DNA from: a bacterium | Lineage (GTDB): Bacteria; Electryoneota; RPQS01 | NCBI GenBank assembly: GCA_013360195.1 | Contig: JABWCQ010000006.1 | Coordinates: 62,001-126,000, forward strand | DNA: 64,000 nt | Direction: 5' to 3' | Made by a program: the position numbers and the translations under genes | The notes under the pieces: generated by a model | What the model was told of the DNA's origin: nothing | The model's input: the letters and a program-made list of their open reading frames with translations, nothing else | The model's database searches: none | Shown: positions 39,815 to 43,640 of the stretch, one piece after another | Layout of the letters: each line of letters starts with the position of its first letter | Position numbering within the stretch: the first letter of the stretch is position 1

Positions 39815-40432
39815 TTACATCGGCAAATGCGCGGCAATGGCCGCCTGCACCTGCGCAAACACGTCGTCTTCATTCCGGCGCGCATCTATCCGTCGCATCC
39901 GCTCCGGATGACGGTGGCAAAGCTCCAAGTAAGCCTGCCGGACAGCTTCAAAAAACTCCTGCGGATTCCGCTCCAACCGGTCTGGAGCGGCACCTGTGGC
40001 CGCTCTGCGGGCGATGGAAGTCTCGTAATCCACATCTAAATAGAGCGTCAAATCGGGCTGAAGGTTCCCGGTGACGAACATGTTCACCGCCTCAATCTCG
40101 TCAACCCCAAGCTCACGACCTGCGCCCTGATAAACCGTTGAAGAATCAGCGTATCGGTCCACCAGCGCGACCGCTCGGGCATTCCTGAGATGAGGCAGCA
40201 ATACCTCCTCCACAAGCTGTGCACGCGAGGCCGAATAAAGCAGATACTCAGCCCGCCCGGTGAGATGGCTGGCAGGGTTCAGGAGCAGCTCGCGAATTCT
40301 TTCGCCAGCCGCGGTTCCACCCGGCTCCCGGGTCACCAATACATCATATTTCAATCCTTCCAACCAGGCAACTGTCCGCGAGATTTGCGTGGACTTGCCG
40401 GAGCCGTCGATACCTTCAAAACTAATGAACAT
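39815..40432 (-). CDS. tmk: Thymidylate kinase
   Basis: Phosphorylates dTMP to dTDP. The 205 residues start with the P-loop FEGIDGSGKSTQ, then carry the DR motif LVDRYADSSTVYQGAGR and the lid region. The TREPGGT motif is conserved. It overlaps the end of lgt by 11 bp, so the two are translationally coupled. It ends 24 bp before the Ctp protease start. Confidence 0.95.
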   Translation of the reverse strand: MFISFEGIDGSGKSTQISRTVAWLEGLKYDVLVTREPGGTAAGERIRELLLNPASHLTGRAEYLLYSASRAQLVEEVLLPHLRNARAVALVDRYADSSTVYQGAGRELGVDEIEAVNMFVTGNLQPDLTLYLDVDYETSIARRAATGAAPDRLERNPQEFFEAVRQAYLELCHRHPERMRRIDARRNEDDVFAQVQAAIAAHLPM

Positions 40433-41240
40433 GAGGAGCGGGCGGTTCTGGTGCGGTCTTGCGGAAAATCAAATACATACCGGCGATAACCATGCCAACC
40501 GAAATGATGCGCGAAAAAGTCAGCAAGTGTCCGTCAAGATTCCCGAATATCATGCCTTCTTCGTACCAGCGCAGTCCTTCGACATAGTAGCGCCAGACCC
40601 CGTAGAGCGTCAGGAAATATCCGGTCAGCACTCCGACTTTGAGCGGAGACTTGTCCTTCCACAGCAGGAATGCGAACAGTGCAAGCATGGCAAGAGTTTC
40701 GTAAAGCTGTGTCGGGTGAATATGCTGATGCGGATAGACTGAGCCGGCCAAACTCGATTCCGGAAAGACTACTCCCCACGGCACGTCGCAGACATTCCCG
40801 AAGCAGCAGCCGTTCAAGAAACAGCCAAGCCGGCCGAACGCGATTCCCAACGCAAGGGAGGGAATCATGATATCCGTGACATTGAGAAATCCGGCATTGC
40901 GTTTCTTGGCCATCCAATAGGCTCCGCCGAACCCGGCTACGACTCCGCCGAGAAGTACGAGCCCGGCAATACCGATGGTGCCGTCACTCTGGATTGGTGA
41001 AATGATGTCGAGCAACCGCCCCTCGAACTCATCCCAATGCGTGATGACATAGGCCAGTCTCCCGCCCGCCAGTCCAAACAAGAGTGAGGCCACGGATATA
41101 TCAACAATTGAATTGCCCGCGACACCCCGTTTCGGTGCGCGCTTGGATGCAATCCAAATTCCAAAGCCAAACGCCAGCGCCAGCATCAAACCATAGCTGT
41201 GCAGCGCGAACGGGCCAATCTTAAATAGTTCTGGATGCAA
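40422..41240 (-). CDS. lgt: Prolipoprotein diacylglyceryl transferase
   Basis: Inner-membrane enzyme attaching diacylglycerol to lipobox Cys, the first step of lipoprotein maturation. The 272 residues have about seven helices. The phosphatidylglycerol-binding motif is GRLGCFLNGCCFGN and HPTQLYE follows. Start Met is at 41240. It overlaps tmk by 11 bp and begins 12 bp after the stop of the HEPN-like gene, which is where the accessory island meets the housekeeping run. Confidence 0.95.
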   Translation of the reverse strand: MHPELFKIGPFALHSYGLMLALAFGFGIWIASKRAPKRGVAGNSIVDISVASLLFGLAGGRLAYVITHWDEFEGRLLDIISPIQSDGTIGIAGLVLLGGVVAGFGGAYWMAKKRNAGFLNVTDIMIPSLALGIAFGRLGCFLNGCCFGNVCDVPWGVVFPESSLAGSVYPHQHIHPTQLYETLAMLALFAFLLWKDKSPLKVGVLTGYFLTLYGVWRYYVEGLRWYEEGMIFGNLDGHLLTFSRIISVGMVIAGMYLIFRKTAPEPPAPHVH

Positions 41241-41252
41241 AGGGGAAATTAC

Positions 41253-41624
41253 CTACTTCAACTCACCAAGTGAACGCAAGATTTCTTCGGCTGTTAGTAC
41301 AGCGTTCTCAGCTTTTCTATCGGAGATATTTTTCCAGTCAAAATAATCAGCAGCAACACGATCTGCAATAAGGCGACTTAACTCATCACCAACGTGCTTT
41401 TCAATCGGATTTGAGGAGTTCTTGAATTCTTCTATGACAAGAGCATGGCTAAACTTTCCATTCTTGTATACAATACTCCTCTTATTTTTTGCAATATTGT
41501 ATGCCGCATAATACGCGCGACTTATAGCGTTCCGATTATCGCATTCCTTCCCGATAGCGATTAAAGGGTCTTGGCCAATTAGCTCTTGAGCGAAAAAGTA
41601 ATATTGTAACCAATCGAATGTCAT
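41253..41624 (-). CDS. HEPN-like small helical protein of an accessory island
   Basis: A 123-residue protein predicted to be all helical. Features typical of HEPN domains are NAISRAYYAAYNIAKN (helix 2) and ADRVAADYFDW followed by a Lys/Ala/Glu-rich last helix ending AEEILRSLGEL. The catalytic Rx4-6H motif of HEPN RNases is not visible, so RNase activity is doubtful. Its ATG overlaps the stop of the previous gene by one base, implying coupling. Base composition is AT-richer than in lgt and rsmI. I do not know its function; RNA binding or a regulatory role in a toxin-antitoxin or defence module is a guess. Confidence 0.6.
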   Translation of the reverse strand: MTFDWLQYYFFAQELIGQDPLIAIGKECDNRNAISRAYYAAYNIAKNKRSIVYKNGKFSHALVIEEFKNSSNPIEKHVGDELSRLIADRVAADYFDWKNISDRKAENAVLTAEEILRSLGELK

Positions 41625-42121
41625 CAGAACTCAAGTTTTACTGTTAAAGTATTGCGAATATTGTTAGGTTGATGTAGCCACCATTCATTGTCAAAAGCTC
41701 GCAACTTTCTTCTCGCTTCAATGACATTTGTGTCAAGATGGACAGATATAACTGCATGCGTGGTCTCATCTTCTGGGTCATATAGTAGTGCCTCTTTAGA
41801 AACTGCTCCTGGGAAATAGCGATTTACACTATCTAATACTGAGTATAGTTCGTTTACGCTCAAACCTTTGGTGGTACAAAATGATATGAATTCATAGTCC
41901 ACCCAATGAAGGTGAGCAGTACTTAATGCAATTGGTTCAAAGTCAACTTGCAAAAATGCTGTATTTACTATCCCAAGCACGGACGAGGTTGTAAGGGATG
42001 AAGAACGGATTCTACTTCCAATCGGAGACATGCGTGTAGTGGTTTCAGGTGTCCGCTTAGCCTTTTGGACGTCATGCGACAAAGAGGTGTTTTGTCGAGC
42101 TATGGTCGCTTCATAATACAT
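41624..42121 (-). CDS. Hypothetical protein, middle gene of the TIGR04255/HEPN island
   Basis: A 165-residue protein I do not recognise. The first 50 residues are Ser/Thr/Arg-rich and may be disordered. The rest looks like an alpha/beta domain with the segments DYEFISFCTTKGLSVNELY, VISVHLDTNVIEARRKL and the aromatic FDNEWWLHQPNN, ending in a strand NTLTVKLEF. It overlaps the upstream TIGR04255-like gene by 11 bp and the downstream HEPN-like gene by 1 bp, so all three appear to be made together. Similar small partners next to TIGR04255 genes would support a conserved module. Confidence 0.5.
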   Translation of the reverse strand: MYYEATIARQNTSLSHDVQKAKRTPETTTRMSPIGSRIRSSSLTTSSVLGIVNTAFLQVDFEPIALSTAHLHWVDYEFISFCTTKGLSVNELYSVLDSVNRYFPGAVSKEALLYDPEDETTHAVISVHLDTNVIEARRKLRAFDNEWWLHQPNNIRNTLTVKLEF

Positions 42122-42854
42122 TGTATTCGAATTCCTTTCTGGCCTTTTCAGTTATAGAAGATTCGAACGCGAGCTCCGCTTCTGAATGTCCAAAGTTCAG
42201 CCATTCTATTATCTGATTAATGTCAACTGGGCGCGGCTTGGACGATTCCACTGTGACATCTAATCTAAACTTATACTCACTCTCGGTGCTATCTACATTT
42301 CCGCACTCAAGCGTAAGAATTGTGTCGCTCTCGCAATCTAACTCGACTCCCCATAAGAACGACCTCATTTTTTTCGCTGCCTCATACGGGTTCTGAGGGC
42401 CGACTCGAAAATAGTCGCTCGCGGTGCTCCAGTTTACCAATATTTGAGGCCTGTTCAAATATTGCAGCTTTATAGACTTCACGGAAAGTGGTCGTGCAAC
42501 TTCAACGAATGTAGGGAAATCTTTCTCAAATCGTCCTAAAAATGAACTCCAATCGTCGTATGGCCGAAGTCGGTTGAATATGATGTTTCCGACGCCTACT
42601 TGAATTACATTCAAGCCGTCCTCACTCCAGAACTGTATCCTTGATTGCTGGTTCATTACTGGAGCGATTCCAATATCGCTCTTTCGAACTTCAAAATTCA
42701 AGAGATTAGTTTGTTTTCGTTGCGGGTACCGATCAGCAATTTGGGAAAACAATACCCCTGGTACGGTTTGATCCCAAGAACTATCAATCTCGAAAGAGAT
42801 TTCAATAATTGCTTCCTGAATTGGAGACTTTCTATAAACCACTTTTGCTGCCAT
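42111..42854 (-). CDS. TIGR04255 family protein
   Basis: A 247-residue protein whose layout fits the sporadically distributed TIGR04255 family. It opens with SPIQEAIIEISFE, then has RIQFWSEDGLNVIQVGVGNIIFNRLRPYDDWSSF and VKSIKLQYLNRPQI, all hallmark positions. The function of TIGR04255 proteins is unknown. GAGG lies 9 bases before the ATG. It begins 22 bp after the rsmI stop. Compared with flanking genes it is AT-rich, consistent with horizontal acquisition into a conserved housekeeping run. Confidence 0.75.
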   Translation of the reverse strand: MAAKVVYRKSPIQEAIIEISFEIDSSWDQTVPGVLFSQIADRYPQRKQTNLLNFEVRKSDIGIAPVMNQQSRIQFWSEDGLNVIQVGVGNIIFNRLRPYDDWSSFLGRFEKDFPTFVEVARPLSVKSIKLQYLNRPQILVNWSTASDYFRVGPQNPYEAAKKMRSFLWGVELDCESDTILTLECGNVDSTESEYKFRLDVTVESSKPRPVDINQIIEWLNFGHSEAELAFESSITEKARKEFEYNVL

Positions 42855-42876
42855 CTAATAGTGCCTCAGAGATAAA

Positions 42877-43593
42877 TCAGTTATTTCCTTGATCAGAACT
42901 GTCATCCGTACCCGCAACAACCACGACAAACTCGCCGCGCGGTTCGTGCTTTTCGAAATGCGCAATCGCGTCACTCAAATGCCCGCGCACAATCTCTTCA
43001 AAGACTTTCGTCAGCTCGCGGCAAACGGCGACCTTGCGGTTGCCCAAATATTCGTGAAGTTCGTAAAGCGTTTTCTGTACCCGGTGCACACTCTCGTACA
43101 ACACTATTGTGCGCGGTTCGTCGGCAAGCTGTTTGAGCTTCGTCTGCCTGCCCTTCTTGTGGGGAAGAAAACCCTCAAACACAAATTTATCGGTTCGCAG
43201 TCCGGAGAGCACCAGCGCCGGAATCAAGGCCGCCGGACCGGGAATTGTCATCACGTTATAACCCGCTTCAAGTGCCGCACTGACCAACAGTGTGCCCGGG
43301 TCGCTGATGCCCGGTGTTCCTGCGTCACTAATGAGCGCGATGCGCTTGCCCAGTGCCAACTGTTCAATCACCCAGACCATTTTTGTCCTCAGATTGTGCG
43401 CGCCGTAGCTCGTCGTTGGAACCTGAATCCCATAGTGGTCAAGCAGCCGCTTCGAGTGCCGCGTGTCTTCACACAACAGCACATCCGCCGTTTTCAGAAT
43501 CTCAATCGCGCGAAACGTGATGTCTCCCAGATTGCCAATCGGTGTGGCGACAACTGCCAATGTGCCGGCAGGAAATTGTGAAGTCTCGCTCAC
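42877..43593 (-). CDS. rsmI: 16S rRNA (cytidine(1402)-2'-O)-methyltransferase
   Basis: SAM-dependent tetrapyrrole-methylase-fold enzyme modifying C1402 of 16S rRNA. Family signatures are GTLAVVATPIGNLGDITFRA, LCEDTRHSKRLL, ISDAGTPGISDPG and VVLYESVHRVQKTL-like (IVLYESVHRV). I chose GTG at 43593 because the earlier GTG at 43620 sits inside a terminator hairpin. With this start the gene is 238 residues, normal for RsmI. The terminator of the lat gene ends only a few bases upstream, so expression may depend on readthrough or on a promoter within the lat gene. Confidence 0.9.
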   Translation of the reverse strand: MSETSQFPAGTLAVVATPIGNLGDITFRAIEILKTADVLLCEDTRHSKRLLDHYGIQVPTTSYGAHNLRTKMVWVIEQLALGKRIALISDAGTPGISDPGTLLVSAALEAGYNVMTIPGPAALIPALVLSGLRTDKFVFEGFLPHKKGRQTKLKQLADEPRTIVLYESVHRVQKTLYELHEYLGNRKVAVCRELTKVFEEIVRGHLSDAIAHFEKHEPRGEFVVVVAGTDDSSDQGNN

Positions 43594-43597
43594 AACG

Positions 43598-43640
43598 AAA
43601 AAAAGACGAGGCCGGGGCACGCCCGCGCGTGCCCCCGGCC
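43598..43640 (-). terminator. Intrinsic terminator after lat, abutting rsmI start
   Basis: Stem GGCCGGGGCACGC paired with GCGTGCCCCCGGCC (one bulged C), then on the minus strand a run of seven T's (plus 43598-43604). The rsmI start codon lies 4 bases after the run. Confidence 0.8.

Follow-up and report, generated by a model that had tools for sequence, protein, structure and literature searches.

Three small genes packed between rsmI and lgt raise the question of whether they act together and, if so, to what end. They lie in a window of 64,000 nt, by which is meant the whole stretch of bacterial DNA that was analyzed. A preliminary description had seen in them three overlapping, AT-rich genes placed 22 and 12 nt from rsmI and lgt, and had suggested a defense or toxin-antitoxin module. 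On balance, we lean toward the reading that the island is a mobile, tripartite toxin-antitoxin-like module consisting of a HEPN effector, a two-part antitoxin or adaptor and a control protein of the TIGR04255 family.

The island and its insertion site

The coordinates and base composition of the island agree with the earlier outline (Table 1). Genes 1 and 2 overlap by 11 nt and genes 2 and 3 by 1 nt; gene calls throughout the analysis are mechanical, with uncertain start codons. The GC contents of genes 1, 2 and 3 are 0.43, 0.41 and 0.40, compared to 0.53–0.58 in five flanking genes, and the GC3 of the island genes is 0.34–0.44, compared to 0.61–0.71 in the flanking genes. The island is also the only stretch of the window that falls below 0.46 GC in 1500-nt windows, so that its composition is foreign to its surroundings. 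The assignment of gene 1 to TIGR04255 holds, with 111 bits against the NCBIfam model (E = 7.9e-32, positions 2–252 of 252, cut-off 30 bits). Gene 2 has no match in Pfam, NCBIfam or PHROG and possesses no recognizable DNA-binding domain. When profiles of the three families were built in a leave-one-out fashion, with the window's own sequences excluded, the TIGR04255, middle and HEPN proteins of the window scored 183, 37 and 95 bits, indicating that the island is not a chance arrangement.

Table 1. Positions of the island genes, their parts and the adjoining features within the window.
Feature	Positions	Strand	Basis
Gene 1, TIGR04255 family protein, 247 aa	42111–42854	-	NCBIfam TIGR04255 match
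Gene 2, middle protein, 165 aa, putative antitoxin/adaptor	41624–42121	-	Leave-one-out profile, 37 bits
Gene 2 residues 1–69, N-terminal extension	41915–42121	-	AF2 pLDDT, extension counts, L203/L204 junction
Gene 2 residues 70–165 and stop, conserved C-terminal domain	41624–41914	-	AF2 pLDDT, alignments
Gene 3, HEPN-domain protein, 123 aa, AF0298/UPF0332-like, putative RNase toxin/effector	41253–41624	-	Pfam PF05168
H60 codon of HEPN	41445–41447	-	Invariant in 37 relatives; aligns with retron-Kva2 H64
R89 codon of HEPN (R-x3-DY replaces Rx4-6H)	41358–41360	-	Nearly invariant; proposed H60 partner
Island-rsmI junction, 22 nt	42855–42876	none	
Island-lgt junction, 12 nt	41241–41252	none	
rsmI	42877–43620		
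lgt, TTG start	40422–41240		

The variable presence expected at the rsmI-lgt junction was also found. In a congener (G001), an aminotransferase gene, rsmI and lgt are adjacent, and a gap of about 90 nt without an island separates rsmI from lgt. In two order-level relatives (G011 and G012), lgt directly follows rsmI and the junction is empty. A further relative, G006, carries an unrelated 229-aa gene at this point (L039, 846–1535), indicating that the junction has taken up more than one kind of insert. By eye, this gene is uracil-DNA-glycosylase-like. The middle protein was found in none of the sampled members of the host's taxonomic family, and within that sample TIGR04255 occurs only in G003, where it is of another type. 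Because the junction is empty or differently occupied in relatives and the sampled family lacks the middle protein, the island is most simply explained as a lateral insertion rather than as a vertically retained piece.

The TIGR04255 module and the exchange of its parts

A census found TIGR04255 in 52 of 386 genomes (~13%). Among 53 loci with enough sequence, drawn regardless of partner, 46 possess two co-directional genes downstream, each within 40 nt. A targeted scan of contigs yielded 66 TIGR04255 loci with flanks of up to 5 kb, a set biased to one TIGR04255 subfamily. The same scan with the window's TIGR04255 as the single-protein query gave no match because this protein is divergent (best identity 32%, long branch), while an alignment excluding the window copy was effective. 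The order TIGR04255-middle-HEPN recurs, with overlapping genes, in more than 40 loci from many phyla, including Nitrospirota, Chloroflexota, Bacillota, Planctomycetota, Acidobacteriota and Bacteroidota, as well as in Methanomicrobiales (archaea); plasmid pTB1 of Thermus brockianus has it too. The recurrent adjacency of the first gene to both partners was thus borne out. Moreover, the three proteins diverge in step from locus to locus (correlation of pairwise distances, rho 0.49–0.61, p = 0.001). TIGR04255 is carried by plasmids of Thermus, Crinalium, Methylocystis and Vibrio; a search of phages returned no TIGR04255 match. The open-access literature that was searched does not mention TIGR04255. 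Within that scope, the three-gene module is widespread, mobile and undescribed.

Several loci illustrate the history of individual copies. In a Calditrichaeota MAG (L075, 4956–8187), the whole TIGR04255/middle/HEPN operon is tandemly duplicated. In a decayed copy (L022, 1432–2001), a deletion joins the TIGR04255 N-terminus to the middle C-domain and the HEPN gene is gone. The operons of L069 and L070 are nearly identical, yet come from MAGs of one sample series called Cyclobacteriaceae and Heimdallarchaeota, which reflects either a binning error or a very recent transfer. The three-gene operon of pTB1 is immediately preceded by a CopG/VapC toxin-antitoxin pair (L002, 2875–3554), and cas6 is nearby.

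Behind TIGR04255, genes 2 and 3 are exchanged as one unit. In place of the middle and HEPN genes, some operons have a gene for a VapB-like protein followed by one for a PIN nuclease (Pfam PIN, E = 4e-14 to 6.5e-7). Other operons have a gene 2 followed by DUF7689 (E = 1e-38), a DNA-binding HTH protein as gene 2, or one of several unnamed pair families, and at locus L146 gene 2 is a SocA_Panacea antitoxin (E = 3e-16) followed by an unnamed gene 3. When the middle family stands behind TIGR04255, the only third gene found with it was HEPN, never PIN or another type. In the TIGR04255 tree, partner types are clustered, yet at least 26 changes are required over all labels (shuffled mean 65). The clearest exchange involves the PIN loci L050–L052, which are nested in a well-supported clade with HEPN loci. 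Specifically, the TIGR04255 proteins of L049 (HEPN) and L050 (PIN) are 60% identical, while their partners are unrelated. The Thermodesulfovibrionales MAG DeMMO4_11 possesses one copy of each type, L050 being of the PIN and L057 of the HEPN type. Judged from sequence, this pairwise swapping is a toxin-antitoxin-like organization, and to this extent the original proposal of a defense or toxin-antitoxin module stands. The clustering with defense genes that was also expected found no support: next to the island-type genes of 65 relatives lie mostly housekeeping genes, and of 103 proteins only a few are of the restriction-modification or HEC kind.

The commonest non-HEPN partner type in the unbiased census is an unnamed family of gene-3 proteins marked by the motifs QGDI and LTQDCDLE (L007, L010, L011, L013, L014, L016, L018 and L021); the L013 member has no Pfam match. 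Genes 2 and 3 of L012, L136 and L137 looked HicAB-like by eye. This identity is not claimed, because Pfam gave no support for the toxin and only a weak PHD_like match for the antitoxin.

Gene 2 is the site of a second exchange. Its residues 1–70 have an AF2 pLDDT of 45–56, and this N-terminal extension is probably disordered. From about residue 80 the pLDDT rises to 91–97, and the modeled C-domain consists of helices, two strands, a helix and a strand. Its DPE and FDxxWW segments are conserved in the alignment, confirming the earlier impression of a conserved FDNEWWL segment. A fold search returned OsmC/ferredoxin-like matches for the middle protein that were generic and not significant. The middle protein adjoins a HEPN gene of the island type in nearly all relatives examined, and a search with the middle protein also found middle-HEPN pairs without TIGR04255.

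The length of the extension follows the presence of TIGR04255. With TIGR04255, the middle protein nearly always has 40–110 extra residues; without it, about half of the middle proteins are short and start 3–25 residues before the conserved domain. Extensions of at least 40 aa occur in 52 of 53 TIGR04255-coupled copies compared to 18 of 42 others (Fisher, 3e-10, a value that ignores kinship). A kinship-controlled test gave three well-supported independent pairs and no discordant one, and is underpowered. Many of the 18 long-extension copies without TIGR04255, not all of them obviously, have another coupled gene upstream. These alternatives include a 228–236-aa family, TIR/ThsB-like proteins, families of 116–127 and 208–221 aa, and CHAT-like proteins, the CHAT-like and small-family assignments being made by eye. 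The upstream proteins of L162, L183 and L208 revealed no distant kinship to TIGR04255, and that of L168 was borderline (E = 0.003 over 1000 sequences). L183, with an upstream partner, has an extension of 54 residues, compared to 3 residues in L182 and L189, which have no coupled partner, although the C-domains are 75–79% identical. Similarly, L201 has a coupled partner and 115 residues, while L193 has no coupled partner and 19 residues, and their C-domains are 82% identical.

Among the upstream genes themselves, the unnamed 228–236-aa gene is coupled to long-extension middle-HEPN pairs in the cyanobacterial loci L183, L184, L187 and L196. TIR/ThsB-like genes lie directly upstream of, or overlap, middle-HEPN pairs lacking TIGR04255 in L157 (919–1398; Pfam TIR_2, E = 1e-5, and ThsB_TIR, 1e-4) and L207 (977–1486, read by eye), where they are possible alternative sensors. 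The CHAT-like (caspase-like, by eye) genes of L197 (2–1132) and L201 (2–1129) are found 20 nt upstream of the pair. The middle proteins of these two loci have extensions of 114–115 residues, and relatives without the CHAT-like gene have 19.

The loci L203 and L204 locate the exchange point. Their upstream flanks are 91% identical over about 130 nt, after which they diverge completely. L203 encodes TIGR04255 and a 61-residue extension, while both the upstream gene of L204 (127 aa) and its extension are unrelated to those of L203. From nucleotide 1150 of L203 to the last base of the HEPN gene, the two are again 94% identical in DNA. Because this identity starts at the C-domain (1149) and ends at the HEPN stop, gene 2 is composed of two cassettes, of which the N-terminal part travels with gene 1 and the C-terminal part with gene 3. 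This exchange, a single case, is the strongest evidence for a physical link between TIGR04255 and the extension. No common short motif was found in the extensions by an EM finder, and an S-[ST]-hydrophobic pattern did not distinguish the TIGR04255-coupled copies (42 of 53) from other long extensions (13 of 20, p = 0.23). The gene 2 family is acidic (median pI 4.7) and the HEPN family basic (8.5), while in the window the two values are nearly equal, 6.05 and 6.12, respectively.

The putative HEPN effector

The third gene had been described as HEPN-like but without a visible Rx4-6H catalytic motif. The first part stands, with a marginal Pfam score (PF05168, 22.2 bits with a cut-off of 22); 27 of 37 members of the island-HEPN family match this model. 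The second part holds for this canonical motif, which is replaced by R89-x3-D93-Y94 with no histidine, but the window protein does have an alternative set of conserved residues, Y38/Y39, H60, R89, D93 and Y94. An alignment of 37 HEPN sequences shows no variation at R31, R36, Y38 and H60 and almost none at R89, D93 and Y94.

Profile searches matched 9xbd, the retron-Kva2 HEPN 36ht (E = 2e-4) and 2hsb (E = 0.0027). The HMM alignment places Y38/Y39 on Y40-42 and H60 on H64 of retron-Kva2, and from residue order, rather than from the alignment, R89 would correspond to R122. The retron-Kva2 HEPN acts on tRNA, and the substitutions H64A, R122A and Y40-42A each abolish defense (PMC13405049, preprint). 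For HEPNs of the AF0298 type, it has been proposed that a second, upstream histidine pairs with the kept arginine (Anantharaman et al., 2013; PMC3710099). By its residues, the window HEPN appears to be of this kind, as the arginine is kept, the motif histidine is missing and an upstream histidine is conserved. Gene 3 is therefore a probable RNase. The PDB entries 9xbd and 9xbc differ at the tyrosine of RNxxDY, which is Y in 9xbd and F in 9xbc and equals Y94 of the window HEPN; the difference suggests that the depositors regard this tyrosine as functional.

Proposed mechanism, rival explanations and known systems

In the mechanism that we propose, HEPN would be a toxic effector in which H60 and R89 form an alternative active site across the dimer, with Y38/Y39 positioning the RNA. 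The C-domain of gene 2, cognate to HEPN, would neutralize it by keeping it inactive, and the flexible N-terminal extension would dock on TIGR04255, which may stabilize gene 2 or sense a signal through this extension. Loss or diversion of TIGR04255, for instance by a phage product or stress, would then free HEPN, and growth would stop.

A special case of this explanation, not exclusive of it, is that the module serves abortive infection against phages specifically, instead of being a general toxin-antitoxin module, with TIGR04255 as the direct sensor of a phage product in the manner of CmdTAC. We consider it a real possibility, short of probable. The exchangeability of effectors and sensors, the closeness of the HEPN family to a retron effector, the TIR/ThsB-like or CHAT-like genes upstream of some pairs, the prophage-like contigs that carry the pairs of L031 and L034, and the CmdTAC precedent are consistent with it. 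Against it, PADLOC gave no match to a defense model (HEPN resembles HamB weakly, at 10.8 bits), and the immediate flanks are mostly housekeeping genes. Phage defense by TIGR04255 modules is plausible.

Gene 1 could instead, though this seems unlikely, bind nucleic acid and regulate the transcription of a toxin-antitoxin pair of two genes, the antitoxin itself having no DNA-binding domain. The proteins omega and PaaR2 are regulators in three-gene toxin-antitoxin operons, and the order regulator-antitoxin-toxin would fit, as would the want of a recognizable DNA-binding domain in gene 2. The AF2 model of TIGR04255 (pLDDT 91.1) possesses tandem b-a-b(4)-a-like halves, and TATA-binding proteins head the list of its PDB fold matches. 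However, none of these matches is significant (E ≥ 5e-3, TM about 0.3 for the TATA-binding proteins), and with a median pI of 5.4 (5.0 for the window copy) TIGR04255 proteins are acidic, unlike a DNA-binding protein, so that this TATA-binding-protein-like reading was set aside. Furthermore, DNA binding by itself would leave the co-occurrence and co-exchange of the extension with gene 1 unexplained.

Still less likely, HEPN could have lost catalysis along with Rx4-6H and simply bind nucleotides or RNA, the operon then being an ordinary regulator of stress or metabolism. The absence of Rx4-6H and the marginal Pfam score agree with this, and HEPNs without conserved charged residues are held to be inactive. 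Yet the alternative residues are invariant across phyla, the matching retron-Kva2 residues H64, R122 and Y40-42 are essential for defense, and PIN nucleases fill the same slot behind TIGR04255. Finally, the foreign GC and the empty site in the congener might suggest orphan genes that were acquired laterally and came together by chance, without joint function. This is refuted by the conserved neighborhood, in which the same order recurs with overlaps and correlated divergence at over 40 loci from many phyla.

Returning to the tripartite module with TIGR04255 as control protein, its closest parallels are the TAC systems (SecB-TA; CmdTAC). In TAC, one dedicated chaperone serves unrelated antitoxin-toxin families (HigBA, HicAB and MqsRA), and chaperone dependence is conferred by antitoxin extensions that are unlike in sequence, while the toxin of CmdTAC is released when its chaperone is diverted by the capsid protein of a phage (PMC5105189; PMC11618068). 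As with TAC, the TIGR04255 modules have three genes and one extra protein serving unrelated pairs. In the middle-HEPN family, a tie between the extension and the third component is suggested by correlation, for which the phylogenetic control is underpowered, and by the L203/L204 exchange. In contrast to TAC, the third component is TIGR04255, which is encoded first and is not SecB-like; SecB gave no family match and was absent from the 50 best PDB fold matches of TIGR04255. The extension is N-terminal in the middle-HEPN family, and the effectors are HEPN, PIN and others. The best reading is that TIGR04255 modules may work like TAC with an unrelated third component. We say "like TAC" and not "TAC" because the SecB-like chaperone, its defining feature, is absent.

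The retron-Kva2 (type IX retron) HEPN also lacks Rx4-6H, has YY and an upstream histidine at aligned positions, and is an effector held by partner proteins (PMC13405049), an arrangement that for the island is only proposed. Unlike the retron, the island has no reverse transcriptase, msDNA or winged-helix partner, the similarity is distant (profile E = 2e-4), and the neighbors at the locus are lgt and rsmI rather than the reverse transcriptase, ncRNA and winged-helix genes of a type IX retron. In AF0298/UPF0332-type HEPN-T proteins (pdb 2hsb) and AbiV, the histidine of Rx4-6H is likewise absent, the arginine kept and an upstream histidine present (PMC3710099), but the island HEPN sits in a three-gene TIGR04255 module without an MNT nucleotidyltransferase partner. 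HEPN-MNT (type VII) toxin-antitoxin systems similarly combine a small HEPN effector with a small neighbor protein; in the island, however, gene 2 has no nucleotidyltransferase match in Pfam or NCBIfam, Rx4-6H is absent and gene 1 is additional. Panacea (PanAT) pairs one element with many unrelated toxins (PMC10440598), and the Panacea antitoxin even occurs as gene 2 at L146, but the promiscuous element of the TIGR04255 modules is a separate protein instead of an antitoxin domain.

Overall, the analysis suggests that TIGR04255 is the constant member of a toxin-control module of three genes, and it indicates that an antitoxin-like gene can bear the exchange point between regulator-facing and toxin-facing halves. 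A wider proposal, which we put forward tentatively, is that TIGR04255 marks a large and so far undescribed group of immune or toxin-antitoxin systems with three parts. In these, a sensor-extension cassette and a C-domain-toxin cassette, joined inside the antitoxin gene, would exchange independently. HEPN, PIN, Panacea-linked and other effectors would all receive their infection signal from TIGR04255, and TIR-like, CHAT-like and unnamed upstream proteins would serve the same HEPN pair. If the module itself works as proposed, it would be an unrelated, second way of realizing the TAC principle and would account for many orphan HEPN and PIN operons outside defense islands. It would also provide a family of interchangeable sensors and RNases, and with it a new three-part toxin or phage-defense switch made of exchangeable parts.
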